From Alphaproteobacteria bacterium (lineage in GTDB: Bacteria > Pseudomonadota > Alphaproteobacteria > UBA8366 > GCA-2717185): a DNA stretch of 35,487 nucleotides. The DNA is taken from contig JAPKDL010000023.1 in the NCBI GenBank assembly GCA_028822585.1, forward strand, positions 1 through 35,487, given 5' to 3'. Each line of letters opens with the position of its first letter. Positions within the stretch are counted from its first letter, which is position 1. The notes below the pieces were generated by a model, which ran no database searches, was not told where the DNA came from, and saw nothing but the letters and a program-made list of their open reading frames with translations. The position numbers and the translations under genes were made by a program. Shown piece after piece: positions 8,869 to 29,773 of this stretch.

Positions 8869-9268
8869 TTAAAACCGCCCCAATTTAGTTCGCCCTGATT
8901 ATGAAAAATCGCATATTGTTTTTACTGTGTCAAATAAGTGTGAAAATTTTTATAGTATTTATTGAAATAGATAGAGTCTTAATCAGTAAATGGAATTTAT
9001 TTAAAGTTAATTTTCCAATATATAGATAAATAAAAAATAATATTACTACATAATGTGTGCATGAGTATTATTCTTTTGGCCTATCTCAATTATGGCGCAT
9101 AGGAATTGATGTTGGAAGTGTTATTCGCAACTGCGCGCCGGTTTCTCAGAAACCGCTCCGCCAAAAACGCAATAAATTGTAGCAAGGGTGGTGTCTGTAT
9201 GCGACATATGGTATTGGAAGCCTATATTCGCGGGCAATTTTTCGGATGTGAAGGTGGACGTTTTCGGT
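8869..9268. promoter_or_regulatory. A+T-rich divergent control region between mucR-type gene and rpiB
   Basis: About 400 bases without a gene between divergent coding regions. From roughly 8900 to 9070 the sequence is dominated by A and T tracts, unlike the rest of the window. A perfect minus-strand TTGACA (complement at 8928-8933) could be the -35 element of the mucR-type gene; no equally good -10 is seen at standard spacing. MucR/H-NS-like proteins favour such DNA, so autoregulation is a reasonable inference. Confidence 0.45.
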
Positions 9269-15062: not shown

Positions 15063-15611
15063 ATGGCGCGTAGCGCATCCTTATCTGTGGGTAAACGGCG
15101 TAGCGCCGCCCGCTTGGCGGCGGTCCAAGCGCTGTATCAAATAGACATTGCCGGCGGCGAGGCAAATTCAGTCGTGGGCGAGTTCGCACAGTATCGGTTG
15201 GGTGAAGATGTTGATGGCGTCGCGATTGTCGAGGCCGATCGAGAGCTGTTTGGCGACCTAGTGCTGGGCGTCACCTCGCATCGAAATACTATCGACGACC
15301 AATTGCGCGCGGTTTTGACCGGTCTATGGACGCTGGAAAAACTGGAGCTCCTAGTACGCGAAATATTGCGGGCGGCGACTTATGAACTCCTGCACCGTAA
15401 CGATATCGACCCGCCCCTGACGGTCAGTGAATATGTCGACCTAACGGCGGCATTTTTCTCCGAAAAAGAGCCGGATTTTGTAAATAGCATTCTGGATCAG
15501 GTCGCGCGAGGGTTAGGGGCTGCCAGTATGAAAACTGTTGCGCCGGCCTCGTCGCCGGAAACTGCTGAAACTGGCGAAACCGGAACGACAGAAACTGATG
15601 AAAACCGGTGA
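15063..15611 (+). CDS. nusB: Transcription antitermination factor NusB
   Basis: A 182-residue RNA-binding factor that with NusE/S10 supports antitermination of rRNA transcription. The fold is visible as RSAARLAAVQALYQIDIAGG at the N-terminus, then LEKLELLVREILRAATYELL and PLTVSEYVDLTAAFFSEKEPDFVNSILDQVAR. The last 30 residues form a Thr/Glu-rich tail (PETAETGETGTTETDENR), longer than in most NusB proteins and probably disordered; thiL starts inside its coding sequence. ATG 15063 is preferred to the upstream TTG. Confidence 0.94.
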   Translation: MARSASLSVGKRRSAARLAAVQALYQIDIAGGEANSVVGEFAQYRLGEDVDGVAIVEADRELFGDLVLGVTSHRNTIDDQLRAVLTGLWTLEKLELLVREILRAATYELLHRNDIDPPLTVSEYVDLTAAFFSEKEPDFVNSILDQVARGLGAASMKTVAPASSPETAETGETGTTETDENR

Positions 15612-16575
15612 ATTCGAACGGATTATCCAGTATTTTGCACCGCTCGCGTCGGAATTTCCCGGTGCCTTTGGTCTGACGGACGACGCCGCGGTTCTGTCGG
15701 CGGCGCCAGGGTATGAATTCGCGGTGACGACTGACACCGTGGTGGAGGGCGTTCATTTTGTTGGTGATGAACCTCCTGCACAAATCGCCGCGAAAATGTT
15801 GCGGGTTAATTTGTCCGATCTGGCCGCCATGGGCGCGCGCCCGGTGGCGTACACGTTGAATATTGCACTGCGTCGCGATGTGGACGACGCCTGGTTAAAA
15901 GGGTTTTGCGCCGGATTGCGGGCCGATCAAGACGCATTTGGTGTTCATCTAATGGGTGGCGACAGCGTCGCCACTAACGGCCCTGTAGTTCTAACGGTAA
16001 CGGCCTTTGGAGAGACCCCTTCGGGTAAAGCGTTGCGCCGAAATGGCGCTGTGCCGGGTGATCGGATTTATGTAAGTGGGACGATTGGCGACGCCGCGCT
16101 TGGGCTACGTGTGGTGCAAGGTAAATTGGTGGGATTGGAGGACGCGGCGGCAGCGGGGCTGGCGTTGCGTTATCACCTGCCGGAACCGAGATTGACGCTG
16201 GGGCGGGAACTCATCAACGTGGCGAGCGCCGCTGCCGACATTTCCGATGGGTTGGTCGCTGATTTGGGACATATTACAGACGCCTCTGGCGTTGGCGCGG
16301 TTTTGAATTGGGAAGACGTGCCGATTTCGGCGGCGGCGCGGGCGACCGCAACGCTTGTTGACAACTTGCCGGAGGTTATTCTGACGGGCGGTGATGATTA
16401 TGAGCTTGTGTTCACCGCACCGGTGGATGTGGCACCGAAGTTGTCGGTGTTGGCGAAACGGTTGAATATCGACTTATGTGAAGTTGGGGTGATCGAGGCC
16501 AACAATGGCGTTCGGGTCATTGACGTCAACGGCCGCGAAATTGTTTTGCAAGAAAAGGGATATGCACATTGTTGA
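15598..16575 (+). CDS. thiL: Thiamine-monophosphate kinase
   Basis: A 325-residue ATP-dependent kinase that makes thiamine diphosphate. Motifs in order: GLTDDAAVL (metal/ATP site), DTVVEGVHFVGDEPP, MGGDSVATNGPVV, then DISDGLVADLGHI and the C-terminal GGDDYELVFTAP. Length is typical. ATG 15598 lies 14 bases inside nusB and begins MKTGEFERI, the usual family opening; a longer frame upstream reads through nusB and was not used. No TPP riboswitch is seen, as expected for an internal operon gene. Confidence 0.95.
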   Translation: MKTGEFERIIQYFAPLASEFPGAFGLTDDAAVLSAAPGYEFAVTTDTVVEGVHFVGDEPPAQIAAKMLRVNLSDLAAMGARPVAYTLNIALRRDVDDAWLKGFCAGLRADQDAFGVHLMGGDSVATNGPVVLTVTAFGETPSGKALRRNGAVPGDRIYVSGTIGDAALGLRVVQGKLVGLEDAAAAGLALRYHLPEPRLTLGRELINVASAAADISDGLVADLGHITDASGVGAVLNWEDVPISAAARATATLVDNLPEVILTGGDDYELVFTAPVDVAPKLSVLAKRLNIDLCEVGVIEANNGVRVIDVNGREIVLQEKGYAHC

Positions 16576-16596: not shown

Positions 16597-17081
16597 TTGA
16601 AGATCGCGATCATAATTGTCGTGGTGCTTGTTTTACTTGGTGGCGACGGGGTTCTTGGTCTTGAAAGAAGATCCTGACGCCAAGCCAGTGGAAGCCTTAG
16701 TTGAAGAGGTTGCATTCCTTGAAATAGACCCGCTCAATGTTGCGGGTCATTAAGAATGCCCCGATACAGCGCAATGTCCTGTTACGTGTGACGTTGAATA
16801 TGAGAGATGGCGAGGCTAGGACATTGGCTCTCGCTGCAATGTCGAAGCTGAGGCACAGGTTTATTAACGATTTGTATGGATATTTTGGAAGCCTGCCTGC
16901 GTCGGAAAAAAGCGTGAATATTAAAACTATCAAACGTCGAATGTTACGAACTGGCAATGCCGTTTTGGGTGCCGACACCTTTCAGGGTATCCTTATTTTG
17001 GGTGTTTTGAGCGGCCGTAGAAAGCCACAAACTAGTCGGGAATGCAGTATGCTGCGTTCTTTTTCTATACTTAATTTCTAA
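16597..17081 (+). pseudogene. FliL-like single-pass membrane protein broken by two frameshifts
   Basis: Pieces of one protein lie in three successive frames. From TTG 16597 the first frame reads LKIAIIIVVVLVLLGGDG, a membrane anchor, then goes out of register at about 16650. The second frame gives FLVLKEDPDAKPVEALVEEV and FLEIDPLNVA, and stops at about 16753. From about 16737 the third frame gives VIKNAPIQRNVLLRVTLN, FINDLYGYFGSLPA and NIKTIKRRMLRTGNAVLG, ending at TAA 17079-17081. The order of anchor, acidic linker, EIDPLNVPVI-type strand and RDLYGFF/IKRRM block recalls FliL-like proteins that I remember following thiL in related alphaproteobacteria. Family assignment is from memory and moderate; the two shifts are seen directly. 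Confidence 0.65.
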
Positions 17082-17101: not shown

Positions 17102-18319
17102 ATGAATGACGCCCAAGTCACGGTGCCTTTGGGCATGAAGCAAACGGACCCGGCGCGAAAAAACGTAACCCTGCTTGCGGTGTGTCAGGCGCTGGCGAAT
17201 AGCGGGTCTTCGTTGATCCTCTCGGTGTCGGCGCTGGTCGGTTTATGGCTGTCCGAGGATAAAAGTTTAGCGACCCTGCCGATTGCCTGCCAATTTACCG
17301 CGACGATGTGCAGTACGCTCCCTGCATCGTTTTTGATGCGCCGGATCGGGCGCAGGGCCGGGTTCACGATCGGGCAATGTTTCGGTCTAGTCGGGGCGTT
17401 GGTGTGCTCCTATGCAATCTACCGGGTAAATTTTTACGGTTTCATCGCGGGCAGTGTTCTGGTCGGCGTCCACAACGCATTTTGGCAATATTATCGCTTT
17501 GCTGCAGCTGATACGGCCAGTGAGGCGTATCGGAGCAAGGCGATATCCTATGTGCTTGCCGGTGGAGTTGTCGCGGCTTTTGTAGGGCCGGGGTTGGCTG
17601 TTCTCAGCCTGGATATGTTCGAAGGTGTTCGGTATGCGGGCAGTTACATCGCGGTGATGGGATTGATCCTCACCGCGATCACAGTTTTGCAATTTATTGA
17701 TATCCCAAGGGATCGTGCTACGGCGCGGCGCGGTGATGCGCGGCCCATCATGGATATTGCCCGCCAACCAGCATTCATCGTCGCGGTTTTATCGGCGGTT
17801 GTCGGTTATGCGGTAATGGCGTTGGTCATGACCGCGACGCCTTTGGCCATGAAAACGCATGGCCACGGCTTTGGCGAAACGGCATTCGTCATTCATTGGC
17901 ATTTGCTGGGTATGTTTGCGCCAAGTTTTGTCACCGGACATATCATTAATCGGTTTGGATCGTTGCGGGTGATTATCGCCGGTGTATTTTTGATGATATT
18001 TTGCATTGTGATCAACATTGTTGGCGTTGATGTCCTTAATTTTCGCGTGTCGTTAGTTTTGCTGGGTGTAGGTTGGAATTTTATGTTTGTCGGTGGCACT
18101 CACTTGTTGACGAATACCTACACTGCCGCGGAACGGACCAAAGTGCAGGGCACGAACGACTTTCTGGTCTTCTCCTTTGTCGCGTTGGGGACGTTGTCGT
18201 CCGGGGTCATTCAACACTCGTTTGGCTGGTCGTGGGTGAATCTGGGAGTGTTGCCGCCCTTATTGATCGTTCTGGCGAGCGTCGCGTGGCTGTCGTTGCA
18301 GAAAACTGCGTCTCGGTAG
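17102..18319 (+). CDS. Major facilitator superfamily transporter
   Basis: A 405-residue polytopic inner-membrane protein with about 12 hydrophobic segments. The loop SFLMRRIGRRAGFTIG after the second segment is the MFS signature (D/R-x-x-G-R-R), and RDRATARRGDARPIMDIARQ forms the central cytoplasmic linker between two six-helix halves. The substrate is unknown. It is followed 72 bases later by a sulfatase gene on the same strand, so it may move the sulfatase's substrate or product, or export sulfate; this is inference. The ATG follows a weak leader after the broken FliL-like gene. Confidence 0.9.
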   Translation: MNDAQVTVPLGMKQTDPARKNVTLLAVCQALANSGSSLILSVSALVGLWLSEDKSLATLPIACQFTATMCSTLPASFLMRRIGRRAGFTIGQCFGLVGALVCSYAIYRVNFYGFIAGSVLVGVHNAFWQYYRFAAADTASEAYRSKAISYVLAGGVVAAFVGPGLAVLSLDMFEGVRYAGSYIAVMGLILTAITVLQFIDIPRDRATARRGDARPIMDIARQPAFIVAVLSAVVGYAVMALVMTATPLAMKTHGHGFGETAFVIHWHLLGMFAPSFVTGHIINRFGSLRVIIAGVFLMIFCIVINIVGVDVLNFRVSLVLLGVGWNFMFVGGTHLLTNTYTAAERTKVQGTNDFLVFSFVALGTLSSGVIQHSFGWSWVNLGVLPPLLIVLASVAWLSLQKTASR

Positions 18320-18391
18320 CTATGGGTATTGTAAATTATTTTGGTTTCGGTCACGTTTTCTCTAATAAACTTGAAAATCGAAGGAAAAATG

Positions 18392-19987
18392 ATGGTAAAA
18401 CAACCTAATTTCATCCTGTTTATGACTGACCAGCAACGCTGGGATCACCTTGGGTGCAACGGCAACAAGGTTCTCAAAACACCAAATATTGACGCGATTG
18501 CGGCGCGTGGTGTTCGCTTCGATAAATTCAGCGTGGCCAGCGCCGTCTGCATGCCCAACCGCGCGACACTGGCGACTGGGCGCATGCCGTCCTTGCATGG
18601 GGTTCGTTATAACGGCGTGCCGCTGACAAAGGATTCGGTGACGTTTGTCGATTTGTTGCGCGCCGCCGGATACAACACTGGGTTATGCGGCAAGTCCCAC
18701 CTGCAAAATTTTTCCGACATGGAAGTTACTCTGCCGCCGTACACCGAAACCGGTGCGCCGCCGCCATCGGATCTGCAAGAAGCACGTCGCGGAACCATCA
18801 GCGGATCGGAATACGAGGAGGAAAAACTGCCGAAGGAAGAACGCCAAGGGTATTTAAATCTTCAAACTCCATTTTATGGCTTCGATCACGTGGACTTGGT
18901 CACTCGACATGGTGACCGGGCGCGCGGCCATTACGATGAATGGCTCAAGGAACAGCATGCGGACGCTGATAGCCTTCGCGGCGCGGACAATGCCATTCCT
19001 GAACCGAATTATTGCGCGCCGCAAGCCTGGCACACTAGTATTCCCGAAGAGCACTACACCTCCACCTATGTGGCGGATAAGAGCGTAGAGTTTCTCGAGG
19101 CCAATGCTGTGGGCAAGAATGATTCGCCGTTCTTTCTACAATGTTCGTTCCCGGATCCGCACCATCCCTACACCCCACCGGGTAAGTATTTCACCATGTA
19201 CGATCCAGACGATATCGAACTGCCGGGAAGCTACAATAATCCGTCGCCGCAACCAACAACGGCCTTTATTCAACAGCAAACATTGGCCAATGCAATGCCG
19301 CGGACAGGCAATCTACCCTTTGCGACCACGGAGCGGGAAACTCGCGAAATCATCGCGGTCACCTATGGCATGATCAGCATGGTTGATGATTGCATTGGCC
19401 GGGTGGTGCAAAAATTAGGGGATTTGGGTCTCGCCGAAGATACTGTTCTCTTGTTTACCAGTGATCACGGTGATTTTATGGGCGATCATGGGATTATGTT
19501 GAAAGGCCCGCTGCATTATCAAAGCCTGATCAACGTGCCGTTTATCTGGGCCGACCCGAAGGATGGTTTGAACGATGTTAGGAACCAAGAATTAGGTGGC
19601 ACAATCGATATTGCCCGCACCGTGTTAGCTCGTGCTGATCTTGCGCCTTATAATGGCATGCAAGGCCATGATTTGGGACCATTGATGCGGGGTGAGGTTG
19701 ATAAGGTCCGTGATGGCCTGATACTAGAACAGGATTCGCAAAAACCGAATTTCCACTTTGATACGCCGATAAAAGCGCGCACTTACCTAACGACCCGATG
19801 GCGTTTATCGCGTTATATGGGATCGAAATTTGGTGAATTATACGACTTGGTAAAAGACCCTTTGGAAATGGACAATCTATGGAATGACCCGGATCACGCT
19901 AGCGTTAAGGGCGAATTGTTGGGGGAGATGGTGATGGCGATGATTGAACACCAGGAAACATCGCCACACCCAACGGATTTTGCATAA
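18392..19987 (+). CDS. Cytoplasmic sulfatase-family hydrolase
   Basis: A 531-residue member of the type I sulfatase/phosphonate monoester hydrolase family, with no signal peptide, so it acts in the cytoplasm. The metal-binding N-terminus is FMTDQQRWDHLG (Asp13). The active-site motif VCMPNRATLATGR places Cys53, to be converted to formylglycine, in C-x-P-N-R instead of the usual C-x-P-S/A-R. The second metal site TSDHGDFMGDHG contains Asp358 and His359, and LKGPLHYQSLINVPFIW follows. A formylglycine-generating enzyme is not in the window. ATG 18392 is better spaced from AAGGA than the ATG at 18389. The substrate cannot be read from sequence; phospho- or phosphonate monoesters remain possible. 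Confidence 0.92.
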   Translation: MVKQPNFILFMTDQQRWDHLGCNGNKVLKTPNIDAIAARGVRFDKFSVASAVCMPNRATLATGRMPSLHGVRYNGVPLTKDSVTFVDLLRAAGYNTGLCGKSHLQNFSDMEVTLPPYTETGAPPPSDLQEARRGTISGSEYEEEKLPKEERQGYLNLQTPFYGFDHVDLVTRHGDRARGHYDEWLKEQHADADSLRGADNAIPEPNYCAPQAWHTSIPEEHYTSTYVADKSVEFLEANAVGKNDSPFFLQCSFPDPHHPYTPPGKYFTMYDPDDIELPGSYNNPSPQPTTAFIQQQTLANAMPRTGNLPFATTERETREIIAVTYGMISMVDDCIGRVVQKLGDLGLAEDTVLLFTSDHGDFMGDHGIMLKGPLHYQSLINVPFIWADPKDGLNDVRNQELGGTIDIARTVLARADLAPYNGMQGHDLGPLMRGEVDKVRDGLILEQDSQKPNFHFDTPIKARTYLTTRWRLSRYMGSKFGELYDLVKDPLEMDNLWNDPDHASVKGELLGEMVMAMIEHQETSPHPTDFA

Positions 19988-20057
19988 AATTATCACTTTA
20001 GTGCCTGGGTTTTCCAGTACTTGATTTTGAGCCTATTTCTAGATAAATTTTCACGAC

Positions 20058-20063
20058 TATAAT
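20058..20063 (+). promoter_or_regulatory. Candidate -10 element of the tctBAC operon
   Basis: A perfect TATAAT lies about 22 bases before the GTG start of tctB. The -35 partner is poor (TTTCTA at 16-base spacing). Initiation here would give a leader of about 15 bases that still contains the AAGGGGG ribosome-binding site. Confidence 0.38.
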
Positions 20064-20085
20064 TTTGTTTCAAGGGGGATATTGA

Positions 20086-20538
20086 GTGACAAGGTCGGAT
20101 TTCATTTCTGGGATTGTATTGCTGGTGTTCGGCTTAGTTTTTTTGTTCGTCTTGATTCCCCACGATATTGAAGCCGGACCGGAAGGTGTTTTGCCGCCGA
20201 GCCTAGTGCCGAATTTGATGGTGGGCGGTATCGCACTCTTGTCGCTCATTTTGATCGTTAAAAATTGGAAGCGCCCGGGCGGTCAAAATGTGGCAAGAGA
20301 GCAGTCCCCGATTTCCATTTCTGAAGTTAAGGCTGTGGCGTGGGCCATTACAATAATTGGGGTGTCGATCCTTTTGTTCCTATGGGGCGGTGCGTTGCCG
20401 GCTGCGACGCTTCTCGTCATTGGTTTGATGTTGGCGATGGGTGAGCGACGGCTCTTACCGCTTGTCGTAACGCCAGTGACGTTACTGATTGGCGCGTACT
20501 TACTTTTCTACCAATTGCTTGGGACATCTATAGAGTAA
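20086..20538 (+). CDS. tctB: TTT transporter small membrane subunit TctB
   Basis: A 150-residue protein with four hydrophobic helices (for example ISGIVLLVFGLVFLFVLIP and LIGAYLLFYQLLG), the size and pattern of the small membrane subunit of tripartite tricarboxylate transporters. It starts at GTG 20086 after AAGGGGG. The next gene, tctA, begins three bases after its stop, so the pair is coupled. TctB proteins are poorly conserved in sequence; the call rests on topology plus gene order. Confidence 0.9.
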   Translation: MTRSDFISGIVLLVFGLVFLFVLIPHDIEAGPEGVLPPSLVPNLMVGGIALLSLILIVKNWKRPGGQNVAREQSPISISEVKAVAWAITIIGVSILLFLWGGALPAATLLVIGLMLAMGERRLLPLVVTPVTLLIGAYLLFYQLLGTSIE

Positions 20539-20541
20539 CCC

Positions 20542-22068
20542 ATGGAAAATTTAATCGGAGGCTTTCAGGATATCCTAACGCCGGTGAATATCGCCTGGAT
20601 CGCGCTGGGTGTTACCATTGGTTATGTTGTCGGTGTGCTGCCGGGCCTTGGCAAAGGGACGGCGGTCGCTGTTGCAATTCCGCTGACCTATTACATTTCA
20701 CCGCTTGCCGCGATTGCACTTTTGATCGGCATTGCCAAGGGCAGTACCGCGGGTAGCGCAGTTTCCGCCATTTTGTTGAATGCGCCGGGCGAACCTTCTT
20801 CGGCACCGACCGCACTGGACGGATATCCGTTGGCACGACAAGGCAAGGCGCATAAGGCGCTTAAAATGGGCCTATTCGCCTCAGTAATTGGCGATTTTAT
20901 TTCAACGCTTGTGTTGATTGTGCTCGCGGCACCCTTGGCGGAATATGCTTTACTGATTGGTCCTGTCGAACTTTGTGCCATCCTTTTGTTCTCGCTTACC
21001 TTTATTGGTGGGCTGTCCGGATCGTCACTCTCGAAGGGAATGATAGCCGCGTGTTTCGGCATTCTGTGCTCGACGGTTGGATTGGAAATAGAAACCGCCA
21101 TTCCTCGCCTGACGTTTGGCGTTCTGGAACTCCAGGATGGATTGCCGCTTATCCCTGTAGCGATTGGCATGTTGGCGACGGCGGAAATGATTGTTCAAAT
21201 GGGCAATCACAAATCCATAGACCAGCAAACTAGTCTTTTGGACGAAGGTAATGCGTCCCGTGAAGACAAAATCGTTCTATGGGAGGATTGGAAATATTGC
21301 ATTCCCGCCATAGGGCGAGGTACGGCGATTGGCACGGTGGTCGGCATTTTGCCAGGTTTAGGGGCGAGTGTTGGCTCGTTCCTGTCTTACGGTGCTACCA
21401 AGAAGGCCTCTAAGCGACCGGAATTGTTTGGCAAGGGCGCTATTGAAGGCGTTGCTGCGGCGGAAAGTGCGGACAATGCGGTGGTGCCCGCAAGTTTGGT
21501 GCCTCTTTTCGCAATTGGCATTCCTGGTAGCGTCATCGCTGCCATTTTGATTGCCGCCTTCATTATTCATGGCGTTACGCCGGGACCGATGATGTTTGTT
21601 GAACAGCCCCGGTTGGTCTACGGAATATACGCTGCGATGATTTGTGCCAGTTTGTTATTATTGTGTATCGGCTATTTTGGTCTGCGGTTTTTCGCGCTTG
21701 TGACCAAGGTTCCGATGCGCATGATCATCCCGGTTGTGTTGTTCTTGTGCGCGATAGGTGCATTCTTGCAAGGGGACGGTATCTTCGGCGTGATGGTTAT
21801 GTTGGCGTTTGGCGTTATCGGGTTTCTGGCTAAGAAACTGGAATTTTCGTTCGTCACCTTCTTGATCGGGTTCGTTATTGGGCCGTCCTTTGAACTAACA
21901 TTCCGTCAATCTATCGCTTTGTTAAACAGGGATATTACGCAAATTATTGACCGCCCGATCGCTATTGCGTTCATTGTTTTAACCGTTCTTACAATTTGGC
22001 GGATAGCGGTTGCAAATGGGAAGAAAAACCAATTGGCGCAAAAAGACTCTGAAATTCCAAAAACTTAA
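20542..22068 (+). CDS. tctA: TTT transporter large membrane subunit TctA
   Basis: A 508-residue inner-membrane protein forming the transport channel. The family's duplicated motif is clear: GVLPGLGKGTAVAVAIPLTY near residue 32 and GILPGLGASVGSFLSYG near 270, each followed by the conserved Ala/Pro-rich loops (LLNAPGEPSSAPTALDGYPL and the ESADNAVVPASLVPLFAIGI region). About twelve hydrophobic segments are present. It works with TctB and the periplasmic TctC to import a carboxylate with proton or sodium symport. The exact substrate is unknown. Confidence 0.96.
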   Translation: MENLIGGFQDILTPVNIAWIALGVTIGYVVGVLPGLGKGTAVAVAIPLTYYISPLAAIALLIGIAKGSTAGSAVSAILLNAPGEPSSAPTALDGYPLARQGKAHKALKMGLFASVIGDFISTLVLIVLAAPLAEYALLIGPVELCAILLFSLTFIGGLSGSSLSKGMIAACFGILCSTVGLEIETAIPRLTFGVLELQDGLPLIPVAIGMLATAEMIVQMGNHKSIDQQTSLLDEGNASREDKIVLWEDWKYCIPAIGRGTAIGTVVGILPGLGASVGSFLSYGATKKASKRPELFGKGAIEGVAAAESADNAVVPASLVPLFAIGIPGSVIAAILIAAFIIHGVTPGPMMFVEQPRLVYGIYAAMICASLLLLCIGYFGLRFFALVTKVPMRMIIPVVLFLCAIGAFLQGDGIFGVMVMLAFGVIGFLAKKLEFSFVTFLIGFVIGPSFELTFRQSIALLNRDITQIIDRPIAIAFIVLTVLTIWRIAVANGKKNQLAQKDSEIPKT

Positions 22069-22094
22069 CATGCAAATTAACTAGGAGTAAGTTC

Positions 22095-23057
22095 TTGAAA
22101 AATTCTATGCTTAGCAATTTAGGCCTCACCTTTGTGGCGGCCAGCTTCGGAACGGCAGTGGTTGCCGGTCCGGCGCTCGCAGAATATCCAGATCGTCCCA
22201 TTACAATGATGATCGGCTATAAGGCTGGCGGTGGGACTGATACGGTAGGGCGGGTTTTGGCAAAAGTCATGGGTGAAGACCTCGGCCAACAAATAAATAT
22301 CCTTAACAAAGCTGGCGCCGGTGGAGGCATCGCTACAATCAAGCTAAAGAAAGCGAAGCCAGACGGTTATACGATCTTGCTGAACCCGTCGACGTCACTC
22401 ACTCTCAACCCCTATCTGGTCAAAAAGCTGACCTATAGGATTGACGACTATACTTATGCTGGGATGTTGACGGCTTATCAAGCGGCCCTCGTGGCACCTA
22501 TTGACCGGCCTTATAATAATCTTAAGGAATTTCTGGCCTATGCAAAGAAAAACCCAGGTACGAAATACGCTGCGTTGAATTCAACTGCGCGAATGGTCAT
22601 GAATGTTATCACGAAAGACTCAGGGCTCGACATTAGTATTGTTCCGGTTAAAGGCGGCGCGGGCATGTTGGCGGTCGTATTTGGTGGCCAAGTCGATCTC
22701 GCCTATAGTGGAGGTATTCACCAGCAGCATCCAACGAAAATTAAGCTGATTGCAGCAGGGACGAGCTCCCGTCAACCGTTGGGCCCAAATATTCCGACAT
22801 TACGGGAAGATGGCTACGATATGTCGTTTGATTCGTTTACGACGTTGATCGTGCCGAAGAAAACACCTAAGGCAATTGTTGCAAAACTTGAGGCTGCCTT
22901 GGCAAAGGCGGCAAAGAATCCGGATATCATTGCGCTTTCAGCCCGGGTAAGTTTCCCGATGGCGCATCGTAATGGCGCTGATGCGACCGCAGAAATGCAC
23001 CGCCAATGGCGTGATTACGGCAAGCTCATCAAGGCTACGGGTACTACAGCAAAGTAA
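22095..23057 (+). CDS. tctC: TTT transporter periplasmic solute-binding protein TctC
   Basis: A 320-residue Bug/TctC-type binding protein. A signal peptide is evident: short basic start, hydrophobic core and AGPALA before EYPDRPI, with cleavage expected after about residue 29. YPDRPITMMIGYKAGGGTDTVGR and NILNKAGAGGGIA are the standard ligand-binding loops. The start is most likely TTG 22095, seven bases after AGGAG; the ATG at 22107 would be 19 bases away and would shorten the signal peptide. The gene closes the tctB-tctA-tctC operon and is followed by a strong terminator. Confidence 0.93.
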   Translation: MKNSMLSNLGLTFVAASFGTAVVAGPALAEYPDRPITMMIGYKAGGGTDTVGRVLAKVMGEDLGQQINILNKAGAGGGIATIKLKKAKPDGYTILLNPSTSLTLNPYLVKKLTYRIDDYTYAGMLTAYQAALVAPIDRPYNNLKEFLAYAKKNPGTKYAALNSTARMVMNVITKDSGLDISIVPVKGGAGMLAVVFGGQVDLAYSGGIHQQHPTKIKLIAAGTSSRQPLGPNIPTLREDGYDMSFDSFTTLIVPKKTPKAIVAKLEAALAKAAKNPDIIALSARVSFPMAHRNGADATAEMHRQWRDYGKLIKATGTTAK

Positions 23058-23080
23058 CCTTAGGCAAAGTACCTTAAGTA

Positions 23081-23122
23081 AATAAGCCGGACGGGCGTGC
23101 TTGCCGTCCGGCTTATTTTTTT
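23081..23122 (+). terminator. Strong intrinsic terminator after tctC
   Basis: A perfect 14-bp stem, AATAAGCCGGACGG at 23081-23094 pairing with CCGTCCGGCTTATT at 23104-23117, has a 9-base loop and ends in a T run. It lies between convergent genes, and the A-rich left flank gives a fair T-rich run on the minus strand, so it may serve both directions. Confidence 0.93.
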
Positions 23123-23138
23123 AACAGTAAGTCGCTGT

Positions 23139-23534
23139 CTACGCGGCCCAACTAGACCGTCCTTGGATGCCCCATTGGCCGCCTTTCTGGGTGAGAATAT
23201 AAAAGGATTTATAGCTTCCAATCACGGAACCGTCCGGATTATATCGTGTAAATTGAACGCGGAAATGTACTTTATTTGGACCAGAATCAACTAATTCCAC
23301 GTAATCCCAAGCTGAGCTGCCCCAATTCGTCGATTGGCCTTCCCGTTCCCAAACTGGCATCTTTAAATCTTGTGGTGTTTCCATGATAGTGATTTTGTCG
23401 CTATGGAAGCGGACATGGGGGAAATGAAACCAGCGATTCCGGAGCGCATCGGCGTCCTCTTTGTTAAAGGCGGCCATGTAGCCGTCCATCGCTGCACGGG
23501 CGGCGGCAATATTTTCATCTGAGTCTGTGGTCAT
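23139..23534 (-). CDS. NTF2/SnoaL-like small protein
   Basis: A 131-residue protein with the layout of the NTF2-like superfamily: an N-terminal helix pair (NIAAARAAMDGYMAAFNKED), a FHFPHVRFHSDKITIM strand region, and a C-terminal sheet (KVHFRVQFTRYNPDGS, YKSFYILTQKGGQWGIQGRS). The fold may be a small enzyme or a ligand-binding protein; no catalytic residues can be assigned. It is cotranscribed downstream of the carboxyltransferase gene, 33 bases away, suggesting a role with it. Confidence 0.72.
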   Translation of the reverse strand: MTTDSDENIAAARAAMDGYMAAFNKEDADALRNRWFHFPHVRFHSDKITIMETPQDLKMPVWEREGQSTNWGSSAWDYVELVDSGPNKVHFRVQFTRYNPDGSVIGSYKSFYILTQKGGQWGIQGRSSWAA

Positions 23535-23567
23535 TGAGGTTTCCTAATAGATTTTAGTTTAAGTTTG

Positions 23568-25148
23568 TCACGGCCGAACGCCGGATTTTAATTTGGGCCC
23601 CAGTCCCTGTTCTAGGCGCTCTTGCATCGCATCGACAAATTTGCAGAGGTAGGGACGGGTTTCACGAGGGTCGATGATGTCCTCCACGCCGAATGCTTCT
23701 GCGGTGAGAAAGGGCGATGAAAATTCGCGCATTTCGTCTTCCAGCTCTTTCGTGCGCTTGGCTGGGTCGGGTGAATTGGCGATGTCACGTCGGAAGGCGG
23801 CGACGACCCCGCCTTCAATTGGTAACGACCCCCATTCCGCTGAGGGCCAGGCGATTTTGAAATCTAGGTTGTTGTAATCCGTCATTGCGGCACCCGCCAT
23901 GCCAAAGCAGCGACGAATGATGACGGAGGTTATAGGGACGCTCGCCTGCATCTGTGCATATTGTAACCGCATGCCTTCGACCAGAACCGCGTCGGACTCC
24001 GCTGCTTCGCCAATCGCGAAGCCCGGCACGTCAACGAAGAACAGGATCGGGATATGGAAACAATCGCAGAGGTCAACGAAATGGGTTTGCTTGCGTGCTG
24101 CTTTCGCGTCCACGGCGCCCCCAACCATCGGGTTGTTCGCGATAATGCCGACGACACGGCCATTCATACGGGCGAAAACTGTGATCGCCGCGCGACCGTA
24201 AGTGGGTTGAATTTCAAAAACCGAACCACGGTCAACGACCAGGGATATGAGTTTGCGCATGTTGTAGGGTTTACGCCTGTCGCGTGGCACGATGTCCAGC
24301 AAAGCGTCCTCGCACCGGTCCACGGGATCATCACAGGCAGTCCGTGGCGGTAACTTCCAGATATTTTGTGGCATATAGCTGAGGTATCGACGGATCATCG
24401 CGAAGGCGTCTTCTTCGCTATCCACGGCGTTGTGGATGGTGCCTGCGCGATCGACCGCGACCTTGTATCCACCGAGTTGTTCTTTTGTCAGCACACCGCC
24501 TACGCCGCGTTCCACCACGGCTGGTCCCGCTGCGAAAATTTGTGTTTTGTCTTTCACCATGACGGAAAAATGCGACATCACCGCGCGCCCCGCCGGGCCG
24601 CCCGCGGCAATGCCAAGCACCGCACCGACGACGGGGACTTGTCCCAGAAGTTCAACGAATATCTGTTTTGGGGCCTGGCTGTGCCCCGGCAGGACAGAAT
24701 AGCCTTTGCTCTTCGCCGACCCGGCGCTGCCGCCAAAGCCGTCGATAAGCCGGATCAGGGGGATTTTATAGTCGAGTGCGAGGTCGTCTACGAAGCCGCC
24801 TTGGCCGCCCTTTCGCCGCATGCCACCCTGATAGGTACCACCGCCAATTGTAGTGTCTTCGCCGCCAATGGCGACGGGTCGACCTTCGATTTCTGCCAAT
24901 CCCATGACATACGAGGCCGGTTTGACGCCAGTGAGCACGCCGTCCTTATAAACGCCGCCTCCAGCAAGCTTGCCGACCTCACGAAATGAGTCTGGGTCCA
25001 CCACCCCGGTGATTCGTTCGCGAACGTTGAGGTGTCCTCGTTCTCGCTGCCGGTCGACCCTTTCGGCACCGCCCATTTCATCCGCCCATTTGCGACGTTG
25101 ATTGAGTTCGTCGACTTCCGATTGCCACGACATCGCTCGAATTTCCAT
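23568..25148 (-). CDS. Acyl-CoA carboxylase, carboxyltransferase (beta) subunit
   Basis: A 526-residue biotin-dependent carboxyltransferase of the propionyl-/methylcrotonyl-CoA carboxylase type. The N-terminal half has RERGHLNVRERITGVVD and IDGFGGSAGSAKSKGYSVLPG, forming one oxyanion hole. The C-terminal half has VVGIIANNPMVGGAVDAKAARK, FVDVPGFAIGEAAES and IIRRCFGMAGAAM. Normally it pairs with a biotin carboxylase/biotin carrier subunit, but none is adjacent, so either a distant alpha subunit serves it or it acts differently, for example as a decarboxylase-like transferase. Two starts are possible, ATG 25148 and ATG 25133; neither has a strong ribosome-binding site. It is divergent from the acyl-CoA synthetase gene. 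Confidence 0.9.
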   Translation of the reverse strand: MEIRAMSWQSEVDELNQRRKWADEMGGAERVDRQRERGHLNVRERITGVVDPDSFREVGKLAGGGVYKDGVLTGVKPASYVMGLAEIEGRPVAIGGEDTTIGGGTYQGGMRRKGGQGGFVDDLALDYKIPLIRLIDGFGGSAGSAKSKGYSVLPGHSQAPKQIFVELLGQVPVVGAVLGIAAGGPAGRAVMSHFSVMVKDKTQIFAAGPAVVERGVGGVLTKEQLGGYKVAVDRAGTIHNAVDSEEDAFAMIRRYLSYMPQNIWKLPPRTACDDPVDRCEDALLDIVPRDRRKPYNMRKLISLVVDRGSVFEIQPTYGRAAITVFARMNGRVVGIIANNPMVGGAVDAKAARKQTHFVDLCDCFHIPILFFVDVPGFAIGEAAESDAVLVEGMRLQYAQMQASVPITSVIIRRCFGMAGAAMTDYNNLDFKIAWPSAEWGSLPIEGGVVAAFRRDIANSPDPAKRTKELEDEMREFSSPFLTAEAFGVEDIIDPRETRPYLCKFVDAMQERLEQGLGPKLKSGVRP

Positions 25149-25255
25149 CTTATTTACAAGAGTCTATAACAACATCACACCATGGTGATGGGGTCCAGCC
25201 TTGTTGGGCTCCCCTGTTGGACAGAGTGGAAACGCGGCAGGTATACTCCGTGATA
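25149..25255. promoter_or_regulatory. Divergent promoter region with a 10-bp palindrome
   Basis: Shared upstream region of the carboxyltransferase and acyl-CoA synthetase genes. CACCATGGTG at 25178-25187 is a perfect palindrome and a possible operator. A TATACT at 25242-25247 with TTGGAC at 25217-25222 (19-base spacing) would start transcription almost at the synthetase ATG, giving a nearly leaderless message. Confidence 0.33.
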
Positions 25256-27490
25256 ATGAATACTTCCCTCAGCGCCATCGATCCATCCGCCCTCGCCATA
25301 TTCGATCTCCATGCAAAAGCGGCGCGCGGGGCGGGTCTACTAACTCTCCCCGAACCAGACGGCAAGGCGATTCTGGCTAAAATTGGCCTCGCCGTACCAC
25401 GGGGCGTTTTCATTACTGATCCGCAGACAATTGAGGGTGATTGCGGATCGCTGAAATTTCCGGTCGCGGTTAAAGGTGTTTCACCCCAGCTTATACATAA
25501 AAGTGATTTGGGTGGGGTTCGCCTTGGCCTTCAAGATTTCAAGGAGGTGCGAAGCGCCTGCATTGAAATGCGCGATGCGGTTGGTGATATTTCCTTGGAC
25601 GGGTTCCTGATTGAGGAAATGGCACCGCCCGGCGTTGAAGTTATCATCGGCGGACTCATCGACCCACAGTTCGGTCCCGTGATTATGGTTGGTATTGGTG
25701 GCGTCTTTGTCGAAATTCTCGCGGATGTATCTTTTCGCATCTGCCCTATCGATTCGCACGACGTGGCTGACATGCTCAATGAATTGCAAGCCGGGCCATT
25801 ATTGGACGGTATTAGAGGCGGCGCTGTCGCGTCCCGTGCGGCGATAATAGAGGCTATGCTTCACGTTGGCGGTGAGGGCGGTATTCTGTACCAGCGCCAA
25901 ACGGAAATCGAGGCGTTGGACATCAACCCGCTCATCGTGTCGGAAGACGGCGCGGTGGTGGCGGATGTGCGTATCGTTTTGCAGGAAACGCCTGCGCCAT
26001 CGCTTGTCGACACGCCCGTAGACTCTATTGATGAAATTCGTGACTTGTTCCGCCCTTTGTTTGAGCCGTCGACAATCGCAGTCGTCGGCGCCTCGGCAAC
26101 GCGGCGGATGCGGTCCAACGCGGTTATTGATCAACTTCTTCAATATGGTTTTGCGCGCGATAAATTATACCCAATCCACCCCACGGCGTCGGAAATTGAT
26201 GGGCTCCCGGCGTATAAGTCATTTCAGGATACGCCGGAACCTGTGGACTACGCCTATATAGCCATTCCCGCCGCCCGTGTTCCCAATTTGCTGTCGGATG
26301 CAAAAGGTCGATTGCGGATCGCCCAAGTGACTGCAGGCGGTTTTGCCGAAGTTGGTAGGCACGATTTGCAAGATACGCTAGTGGCGGCGGTGCGCGAATC
26401 TGGTGCGCGCTTGATAGGGCCGAATTGCAATGGCGCGCATTCGCCGCGTGGAAAATTGACCTTCTGCTATGATTGTGCGCCGGAAGAAGGATCGGTTGGT
26501 ATTATTTTACAAAGCGGCGGTCTGGGGATGGACACGATCCGGCGCGGCAATCACCGCGGACTACGCTTCAGCGGCGTCATAACGGTGGGTAATTGTGCGG
26601 ATATAGGCGTGACCGATTTGCTGGCGTTTTACCTAAATGATTCGGAAACCAAGGTGATAGGCATGTATTTGGAAGGCGCGCCCGAAGGCAGGCGTTTGTT
26701 CAACCTTCTGCGCCAACGCCCATCAATGAAGCCTGTGGTAATCTTGAAAGGTGGGCGCAGTGAGCGCGGTGGCACTGCCGTGGTTACGCATACGGGGACC
26801 CTCAGTGGCGATGATCGAATTTGGGAGGCGCTGTCCCGGCAAACCGGTGCCGTGCTCGCGACGTCGCTCGATGATTTTATTGACAATCTTCTGGCGTTGC
26901 AAAGCGCTGAACCGCGCATTGGAGCGCCGACCGTGCGCGCCGTACTGCTTGGCAATGGCGGCGGTGCCAGCGTGTTGGGCGTCGACTCTTTCGCGCGCGT
27001 CGGGGTCGATATTACACCATTTACAGCCACAACCATTCAACGTTTGGAAGGGCTTGGCCTGGATCCGGGCGCGGCCTATTCAAACCCAGTTGACCTGCCG
27101 CAACCCGTGTTGGTTGCGCGGGAAGGTCGCGATACCGAGAATGTTTTACGTATCATTTGTGAAAATGAAGATCCGCAAGCGATCGTCATGCATGTGAATT
27201 TATCGGTCGTGATGAGCCTGGCGAAAGGAGGGGACGATCCGTTGATGAAGCTTCTCGACGTCGCCGTGCGGGTGAATCGTGCATTTCCGGGGAAAGCGCA
27301 TTTTCTGCTGGTGTTGCGATCTGATGGCAGCCTTGCCTATGAAAAAGCGAAGATACGCTATCGTGCGCGGGCGTTGGAATGTGGAATTTCGACATATGAT
27401 GAACTCCCCGCCGCTGCGAACGCCGTCGCCGCAATCGCGACACATGAAAATTATACAGCGCGGGAACGCCGAAACGGCGTCAAATATTAA
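25256..27490 (+). CDS. Acyl-CoA synthetase (ADP/NDP-forming), fused, ATP-grasp domain first
   Basis: A 744-residue enzyme that makes an acyl-CoA from acid, CoA and ATP, with ADP and phosphate as products. Domain order is unusual: an ATP-grasp domain (about residues 15-245, FPVAVKGVSPQLIHKSDLGG to EIEALDINPLIV) comes before the CoA-binding domain (about 265-400, PSTIAVVGASATRRM) and the ligase domains. E. coli-type homologues place ATP-grasp last. Both phosphorylated histidines seem present: His81 in IHKSDLGG and His512 in VVTHTGTLSG. ATG 25256 is chosen because homology starts soon after; the ribosome-binding site is poor (GCAGG 14 bases away). The substrate acid is unknown; the nearby TTT transporter may supply it. 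Confidence 0.9.
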   Translation: MNTSLSAIDPSALAIFDLHAKAARGAGLLTLPEPDGKAILAKIGLAVPRGVFITDPQTIEGDCGSLKFPVAVKGVSPQLIHKSDLGGVRLGLQDFKEVRSACIEMRDAVGDISLDGFLIEEMAPPGVEVIIGGLIDPQFGPVIMVGIGGVFVEILADVSFRICPIDSHDVADMLNELQAGPLLDGIRGGAVASRAAIIEAMLHVGGEGGILYQRQTEIEALDINPLIVSEDGAVVADVRIVLQETPAPSLVDTPVDSIDEIRDLFRPLFEPSTIAVVGASATRRMRSNAVIDQLLQYGFARDKLYPIHPTASEIDGLPAYKSFQDTPEPVDYAYIAIPAARVPNLLSDAKGRLRIAQVTAGGFAEVGRHDLQDTLVAAVRESGARLIGPNCNGAHSPRGKLTFCYDCAPEEGSVGIILQSGGLGMDTIRRGNHRGLRFSGVITVGNCADIGVTDLLAFYLNDSETKVIGMYLEGAPEGRRLFNLLRQRPSMKPVVILKGGRSERGGTAVVTHTGTLSGDDRIWEALSRQTGAVLATSLDDFIDNLLALQSAEPRIGAPTVRAVLLGNGGGASVLGVDSFARVGVDITPFTATTIQRLEGLGLDPGAAYSNPVDLPQPVLVAREGRDTENVLRIICENEDPQAIVMHVNLSVVMSLAKGGDDPLMKLLDVAVRVNRAFPGKAHFLLVLRSDGSLAYEKAKIRYRARALECGISTYDELPAAANAVAAIATHENYTARERRNGVKY

Positions 27491-27670
27491 AAGTGGAGGG
27501 TGGTTGCATTTCTGCTGATGTTCTGGCATATGTTCCGGCGAAATTTACGGTCATCGCAGCATTTCTGGTATTCTTGAGGACGACCCTTGAGGGCTAGCAA
27601 ATGAAACGTTGTGTTTGGCGAGTAAGTTTAAAGCCACAAGTTTTCTCTAATTGTACAAGGTTGCACAGTG

Positions 27671-29773
27671 ATGTTGGAATTCGTCATTGCCTGCGGCGTG
27701 TTTGCGCTGCTGTATGGTATTTGGGCTAGCCGGGTTGTTCTGAGCGCAAGCTCTGGGAACGAACGGATGCAGGAAATCGCGGCGGCGATTCAAGAAGGCG
27801 CTGCGGCGTATTTGAACCGCCAGTATACGGCCATCGGCATCGTCGGTGTCGTGGTGGCCGTATTGGCCTGGTTCTTTTTGGGGTGGCAATCGGCGCTTGG
27901 GTTCGCAATTGGGTCCATTCTGTCGGGCGCAGCCGGCTATATTGGTATGAACATTTCTGTTCGCGCCAATGTCCGCACTGCCGAAGGCGCGCGGGAAAGT
28001 TTGGCGCGCGGCCTTGATATCGCCTTTAAATCTGGCGCCATAACGGGGATGCTGGTTGCTGGTTTGGCGCTTCTGGCCATTGCCGTATATTATGGGGTTT
28101 TAACGTCTATCGGACTTGAAGGTCGGGAACTGATTGGTCCGCTTGTGGCGCTTGGCTTTGGCGCTTCGCTGATTTCAATTTTCGCGCGGCTTGGCGGCGG
28201 CATCTTCACCAAGGGTGCCGATGTTGGCGCCGACCTGGTGGGCAAGGTCGAAGTGGGCATTCCCGAAGATGACCCCCGAAACCCGGCGGTGATAGCCGAT
28301 AACGTTGGCGACAATGTTGGCGATTGCGCGGGCATGGCGGCGGACTTGTTTGAAACCTACGTTGTTTCCATGGTCGCCACGATGGTGCTGGGCATTATCT
28401 TTTTCACCGGCGAAGAAGCGGCGAACTTCATGATGTACCCGCTGATGATTGGCGCGGTGTGCATTATCACGTCGGTTATCTCAACGTTCTTCGTAAAGCT
28501 TGGCGCTAGTAACAACATTATGGGGGCCTTGTATAAGGGGTTCATAGTGTGTGCGGTGCTATCTGCGATCGCGCTGTATCCAACGACAGATTATGTCATT
28601 GGATTGGAGACAAAGTTCGACGTTATGGGCAAAACCTTCACTGGCATGAGCCTGTTCTATTGCGGCTTGGTTGGATTGGTGGTGACGGGGTTGATTATTT
28701 GGGTAACCGAATATTATACCTCCACGGAATACCGTCCGGTCCGTTCAATCGCGCTGTCGTCCGAGACGGGCCATGGTACGAACGTCATTCAGGGCCTCGC
28801 GATCTCACTTGAAGCGACGGCGGTGCCAGCGTTGATCATTTGCGCAGCCATTGTCTCGACCTTCATGCTGGCGGGACTGGTCGGCATCGCGATTGCGGTG
28901 ACGGCGATGTTGGCGGTGGCGGGCATGGTTGTTGCGCTCGACGCCTACGGTCCTGTGACGGATAACGCGGGCGGCATTGCGGAAATGGCGGAAATGGACG
29001 AAGACGTCCGGAAAACCACCGATGCGCTGGACGCTGTCGGAAACACCACGAAAGCCGTGACCAAGGGGTACGCCATCGGGTCCGCTGGATTGGGCGCGTT
29101 GGTGCTGTTTGGTGCCTACACGCAGGATTTGGAGTTCTTCATCCAAAATGCGACGGGAGATAAATTTGCGTATTTCCAGGGTGTCACGCTGGACTTCTCG
29201 CTTTCCAACCCGTTTGTCGTTGTCGGCTTGTTCCTGGGTGGATTGCTGCCGTACCTGTTTGGTGCCATGGGCATGACCGCCGTTGGCCGCGCCGCCGGAT
29301 CGGTGGTGATTGAAGTACGTCGGCAATTCCGGGAAATTCCGGGGATCATGGAAGGCACGGCCAAGCCGGAATACGGTAAATGCGTTGACCTGCTGACCCG
29401 CGCCGCGATTAAGGAGATGATTATACCGTCCCTGATGCCGGTGCTGGCGCCGGTCGTCGTGTTTGGTGTGGTGTTGCTAATCGCGGATAAGTCCGCAGCC
29501 TTCGCGGCGCTTGGCGCGATGTTACTGGGCGTGATCGTTACGGGGTTGTTCTTGGCGATATCCATGACGGCCGGTGGCGGCGCTTGGGATAACGCCAAGA
29601 AGTACATCGAAGATGGCAATCATGGTGGCAAGGGTTCTGACGCGCACAAGGCTGCGGTGACCGGTGACACGGTTGGCGATCCGTACAAGGACACGGCCGG
29701 ACCGGCGGTGAACCCGATGATCAAGATCACCAACATCGTCGCGTTGTTGTTGCTGGCGGCGCTAGCGCACTAA
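27671..29773 (+). CDS. hppA: Membrane-bound proton-translocating pyrophosphatase, K+-independent type
   Basis: A 700-residue polytopic enzyme coupling pyrophosphate hydrolysis to proton pumping. The pyrophosphate-binding signature [11 protein letters not shown] is followed by [20 protein letters not shown] and [16 protein letters not shown]. The C-terminal acidic motifs [15 protein letters not shown] are present. In the GNTTKA segment the lysine replaces the alanine of potassium-dependent enzymes (GNTTAA), so this one should not need K+; that reading relies on established family rules. About 16 hydrophobic segments are expected. The start is ATG 27671 or the preceding GTG 27668; AAGG lies 7-10 bases upstream. 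Confidence 0.97.

Follow-up and report, generated by a model that had tools for sequence, protein, structure and literature searches.

The window analysed here is the whole of a 35.5-kb contig (JAPKDL010000023.1, 35,487 nucleotides) from an alphaproteobacterial genome, G000, whose assembly is fragmented into 265 contigs. Between the conserved genes thiL and hppA it holds a gene for a major facilitator superfamily (MFS) transporter, a sulfatase gene, the three genes of a tripartite tricarboxylate transporter (TTT), a gene for a 131-aa protein, and a divergent pair coding for a carboxyltransferase and an ADP-forming acyl-CoA synthetase (Table 1). Families were assigned by Pfam above the curated cut-offs, with NCBIfam used for the thiL and hppA flanks. 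The assignments agree with a first-pass annotation as to the five gene types (MFS, sulfatase, TTT, carboxyltransferase and synthetase) and their place between the two flanks. That annotation had also proposed that the five form one uptake-and-activation pathway on an acquired accessory island. The comparisons below resolve the region into a chromosomal backbone with two separate inserts.

Table 1. Features of the thiL–hppA region, with positions numbered along the window.
Feature	Positions	Strand	Basis
thiL, left conserved flank	15538-16575		
Small open reading frame (ORF) between thiL and the MFS gene	16737-17081	+	
MFS transporter gene	17102-18319	+	Pfam MFS_1, 82.9 bits
Formylglycine-type sulfatase, predicted cytoplasmic	18389-19987	+	Pfam Sulfatase, 150 bits
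tctB, TTT small membrane subunit	20086-20538	+	Pfam TctB, 44 bits (cut-off 29.1)
tctA, TTT large membrane subunit	20542-22068	+	Pfam TctA, 455.6 bits
tctC, TTT solute-binding protein (periplasmic)	22095-23057	+	Pfam TctC, 161 bits
Intrinsic terminator 3' of tctC	23081-23122	+	Sequence and RNA fold
Protein of 131 aa, predicted NTF2-like fold	23139-23534	-	
Second insert, in place of ~160 bp in G001	23519-27483		DNA alignment
Carboxyltransferase, propionyl-CoA-carboxylase beta type	23568-25148	-	Pfam Carboxyl_trans, 309 bits
ADP-forming acyl-CoA synthetase, beta-alpha fusion	25217-27490	+	ATP-grasp_5, CoA_binding_2, Succ_CoA_lig
hppA, membrane pyrophosphatase, right conserved flank	27668-29773	+	NCBIfam PRK00733.1-2, 1166.9 bits

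In the same-genus genome G001, the gene order is thiL, small ORF, MFS, sulfatase, tctB, tctA, tctC, 131-aa gene and hppA. The DNA alignment between the window and G001 stops at window position 23518 and restarts at 27484, which correspond to G001 positions 9251 and 9411. Between these breakpoints the window has ~3.97 kb with the carboxyltransferase and synthetase genes, and G001 has ~160 bp of unmatched sequence. The hppA leader is intact and joins cleanly in G001. Because G001 has sulfatase-tctB-tctA-tctC and the 131-aa gene without the carboxyltransferase/synthetase pair, the former constitute one insert, common to both genomes, and the pair constitutes a second, separate insert. Acquisition of the region as one block was rejected on the basis of these breakpoints. 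The GC content is 0.50-0.52 in the first insert, 0.53-0.57 in thiL, MFS, hppA and plsX, and 0.55-0.58 in the carboxyltransferase and synthetase genes; such differences are only suggestive, and base composition was not accepted as proof of transfer.

The backbone was defined from the surroundings of hppA. Among 44 genomes searched, 38 had an hppA match and 25 relatives were taken. L126 and L131, with ≤120 bp upstream of hppA, were set aside along with L101, which is G001 itself, so that 22 informative loci outside the genus remain. In 16 of them an MFS ortholog precedes hppA, at a distance of 145-318 bp. Matches to the sulfatase, Tct, carboxyltransferase or synthetase were found upstream of hppA in 0/22, some of these loci holding only 0.6-1.9 kb of upstream sequence. 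Since the MFS gene adjoins hppA in relatives that lack the island genes, it belongs to the conserved chromosomal backbone and was rejected as a member of the island. The idea of an accessory island between conserved blocks thus survives for the other genes, which arrived as two inserts, and fails for the MFS gene.

The 131-aa gene, between tctC and the carboxyltransferase gene, was overlooked in the first-pass annotation. The protein is 73% identical in G001 at the same place, and the gene is under purifying selection (pN/pS 0.17). Pfam gave no family for the protein. Its AlphaFold model (pLDDT 88.1) matches NTF2/ketosteroid-isomerase-like folds in Foldseek, at TM values up to about 0.75, and an NTF2-like fold is predicted from this model. 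Homologs of the gene are kept at the site within the genus and occur at unrelated places in other genomes. As for the small ORF beside thiL, its homolog in G005 (L117) shows a weak FliL match, 22.3 bits against the Pfam cut-off of 24.6.

The sulfatase carries an intact active-site motif C-x-P-x-R...TG (CMPNRATLATG at ORF residue 70); the ORF opens at a TTG at 18341, the ATG at 18389 being the likelier start. Type I sulfatases of the Cys form need a formylglycine-generating enzyme (FGE), and one is found in the window's genome (PF03781, G000:C33:7308-8078, 168.8 bits). No obvious signal peptide is present in the sulfatase sequence, so the cytoplasmic location assumed earlier is reasonable. The enzyme is 84% identical to its G001 counterpart and falls below every NCBIfam sulfatase cut-off; its best solved matches are 4upl (E 7e-53) and 4upi (E 5e-48). 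TctA, TctB and TctC are all present and adjacent (20086-23057), a gap of 98 bp separating the sulfatase gene from tctB. TctC has a hydrophobic N-terminus and BugD (2f5x, E 5.5e-34) as its best solved match. The genes of the insert are under purifying selection, with pN/pS values of 0.11-0.26. The annotated terminator after tctC is confirmed as a strong one, the RNA fold of 23070-23135 having a z of -4.62 that was equalled by 0/200 shuffles; it does not rest on the consensus terminator scan, which showed no excess (17 against 15.8 expected).

To evaluate the partnership of sulfatase and transporter in other genomes, genome contigs were searched with a profile built from an alignment of six sulfatases, and the best 80 loci among the matches listed were all searched for partners by tblastn. 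TctC or TctA lies ≤600 bp from the sulfatase in 34/80 loci and a TRAP permease in 11/80. A TTT component or TAXI-TRAP permease is thus found within 600 bp in 45/80, and within 5 kb in 53/80. TctC starts within 600 bp number 36, where 2.96 would be expected on the basis of the zone 1.5-5 kb away at these loci. Examples of the partnership are Ramlibacter aurantiacus (L182), with TctC, and Tateyamaria omphalii (L159), with TRAP. Among loci assigned to Burkholderiales by their record titles, TctC is on the same strand and within 600 bp in 25/28; the remaining 52 loci have 9 TctC starts within 600 bp, against 0.67 expected. A sulfatase tree was built from 86 rows, comprising the 80 loci and 6 sequences from the genomes of the window and its relatives. 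The Cys form of the motif is present in 75/86 rows and the Ser form in none, the exact pattern being missing in 11. The TTT label changes 13 times on this tree, with at least 9 changes forced by starred branches; shuffled labels change 27.7 times, and 0/500 shuffles gave a value as low. The sulfatases of the window and G001 group with each other, apart from the main TTT clade. It follows that the pairing of sulfatase and transporter arose repeatedly, the window's being a separate instance. No carboxyltransferase match was found in the 80 sulfatase loci, and a partial synthetase match occurs in L185 only, 7 kb away. A Pfam tally of the flanking genes gave no substrate clue: 86 ORFs were left after removal of the known classes, 3 partial ones were dropped, and no family occurs in more than 6 of the 83 scanned.

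Considering the backbone, the separate inserts and this partnership, we moderately favour a reading in which two unrelated inserts lie between MFS and hppA of a thiL-MFS-hppA backbone, and the first insert is an organic-anion scavenging operon. It would have entered before the split of the two genus members. In the periplasm, TctC would bind a small molecule that bears a carboxyl and perhaps a sulfate group, and TctAB would import it. The sulfatase, matured by the FGE on contig C33, would then strip the sulfate in the cytoplasm and so yield sulfur and/or a carbon skeleton. Import followed by desulfation, as proposed by the first-pass annotation, is supported as an association at the level of the sulfatase family.

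Several observations weigh against this reading. Neither TTT nor TAXI-TRAP is found within 5 kb in 27/80 sulfatase loci. The Poisson counts take related loci as independent, and the loci are not all independent. On the tree, four sulfatase homologs (42-44% identical; G007, G009 and G035) were scored as having no partner, the transporter search having covered the other 80 sequences. A TctC search of 385 genomes of the class found 16 with a match at E ≤ 1e-40; from this and one other search 12 places were drawn for inspection, plus L116. For the closest TTT relatives (TctA 64-68% identical; L116, L309, L310 and L311), the stretches examined contain no match to the sulfatase, and in L116 and L309 a CaiB-type CoA-transferase gene adjoins the TTT genes. 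The window's TTT may therefore import a non-sulfated acid. Finally, the best solved relatives of the sulfatase belong to the sulfatase/phosphonate-monoester-hydrolase group, and that superfamily is promiscuous. These last two points would equally suit a TTT whose cargo is a plain dicarboxylate or an aromatic acid, next to a sulfatase-like enzyme engaged in phosphodiester or phosphonate ester hydrolysis or in general sulfur scavenging, the adjacency being operonic convenience. We regard this alternative as unlikely but worth keeping in mind: the sulfatase family is repeatedly found beside two unrelated families of receptor-dependent transporters, which convenience would not predict.

The second insert carries a recurrent unit of its own. 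The carboxyltransferase fold covers its full length (Carboxyl_trans, positions 2-481 of 493), and the protein matches the solved structure 1vrg (E 5.4e-85). No biotin carboxylase is linked to it on the contig. Of the 17 carboxyltransferase matches in G000, 4 of them partial, 12 lie on contigs that carry none of the 6 biotin carboxylases, and the biotin carboxylase subunit may be supplied in trans. That this genome has far more carboxyltransferase matches than biotin carboxylases (17 and 6) suggests that biotin partners are shared or absent. The synthetase has ATP-grasp, CoA-binding and ligase domains, and retains both IHKSD and THTG, which we take to be its catalytic His motifs. It is below all NCBIfam equivalog cut-offs, and the ATG at 25256 is a possible alternative start.

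A carboxyltransferase lies ≤1.5 kb from the synthetase in 17 of the 20 best synthetase loci; L024 and L025 have none nearby, and L039 is truncated by the end of its contig. The divergent pair with a carboxyltransferase of the window's type occurs in the window, L022 and L023, and the other 14 loci carry a distant one (30-34%). For the tandem form, 22 larger stretches were chosen after the hit lists had been seen, hence not blind, and 20/22 have the order carboxyltransferase then synthetase. In five of the tandem stretches (L112, L113, L264, L275 and L280) a TRAP permease gene precedes the pair, separated from it by CaiB and/or enoyl-CoA hydratase. Carboxyltransferase and synthetase are thus a recurrent two-gene unit. 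In four genomes (L049-L052) two different carboxyltransferases, 54-59% and 33-35% identical to the window's, stand in tandem. A paralogous pair in the window's own genome (L112; G000:C158, 2377-11879) closes a series DctP-DctQ-DctM-CaiB-enoyl-CoA hydratase-carboxyltransferase-synthetase, followed by CinA, and G001, G003, G004 and G005 have a similar order. From its gene content this operon is a candidate pathway for uptake and CoA activation, and a better example of what the first-pass annotation had in mind than the window is. In the window, the synthetase would turn a carboxylate into its CoA thioester by ADP-forming chemistry, and the carboxyltransferase would add, move or remove a carboxyl group with a biotin carboxylase and carrier borrowed from elsewhere.

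The orthologous pair is found elsewhere in G007 and G009, and in G019 and G028 it is split between contigs. We favour gain of the second insert in the window's lineage. The opposite history, in which the pair was already here in the ancestor of the genus and was later deleted from G001, is rather improbable; the unmatched ~160 bp in G001 speaks for it and counts from two informative genomes cannot separate gain from loss, but the clean hppA junction in G001 and the unrelated places of the pair in the four other genomes point the other way.

There is no reason in the evidence to assume that the two inserts share one pathway. It is conceivable that in this strain the TTT supplies the carboxylate activated by the pair, so that the second insertion built a new pathway. 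Close TTT relatives do adjoin CaiB CoA-transferases, and G000 has its paralogous pair behind a TRAP system, but the arrangement occurs in no other genome examined and the two parts are separate transcription units. We therefore hold this to be improbable. The single pathway of the first-pass annotation, in which one compound would be imported by MFS and TTT, desulfated, activated with CoA and subjected to carboxyl chemistry, is very improbable: the genes are clustered in the window, the carboxyltransferase ortholog lies ~5 kb or less from other TctA/TctC genes in G019 and G028, and the C158 operon indicates that operons combining uptake, CoA activation and carboxyl chemistry do exist in this lineage, but with the MFS gene ancestral, the pair missing from G001 at this locus and placed elsewhere or split in other genomes, no carboxyltransferase at any sulfatase locus, and a strong terminator with opposite orientation between the parts, the five genes are not conserved as a block, are largely scattered independently, and their grouping is largely refuted.

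We have compared the window's proteins with known systems. As in the TTT transporters TctCBA, SlcHFG and TpiBA/TphC, all three Pfam subunits are encoded in one operon; unlike in those, the order is B-A-C, behind a sulfatase. The sulfatase shares the C-x-P-x-R...TG motif and the Pfam Sulfatase domain with the type I sulfatases of the 4upl/4upi group, but belongs to a ~42-51% family with a CMPNR/CQPNR motif, no signal peptide and a receptor-type transporter as partner. The synthetase has the same three domains and both His motifs as the 3-hydroxypropionate/4-hydroxybutyrate CoA ligases and the dimethylsulfoniopropionate (DMSP) lyase DddX. It differs from them in its score (355 against an equivalog cut-off of 1200) and its beta-alpha order; the best solved matches are 9y43, 8wzu and 4xyl, the DMSP lyase 7cm9 being weaker. 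The carboxyltransferase has the full-length Carboxyl_trans domain of PccB, MmdA and the 12S transcarboxylase. Unlike them it has no linked biotin carboxylase and has an ADP-forming synthetase as partner, and its MmdA score is 322.6 against a cut-off of 998.8.

The protein families are all known. No description of the link between sulfatase and TTT or TAXI-TRAP was found in the literature searched, in which subscription papers are thinly covered, and within this partial coverage the recurrent partnership would be the new element. According to a TTT review (PMC5812351), TTT ligands are mostly di- and tricarboxylates, sulfolactate included, and many Bug/TctC receptors of Bordetella and other Burkholderiales are without a known ligand; the word 'sulfatase' does not appear in its main text. 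We tentatively propose that this cytoplasmic sulfatase family, widespread in proteobacteria, is the enzyme part of an 'import first, desulfate inside' system, having repeatedly and independently recruited TTT receptors (often an orphan TctC) or TAXI-TRAP permeases, and that many of the unassigned Bug/TctC receptors may bind carboxylated organosulfates.

For the window itself, the analysis corrects a false five-gene pathway and directs attention to another operon of G000, in which the combination of carboxyltransferase and synthetase is better supported. If the neighbouring sulfatase reports the ligand class of a receptor, a sulfate-ester screen could assign a set of Bug/TctC receptors, and the proposal, if true, would show how Burkholderiales use small organosulfates.

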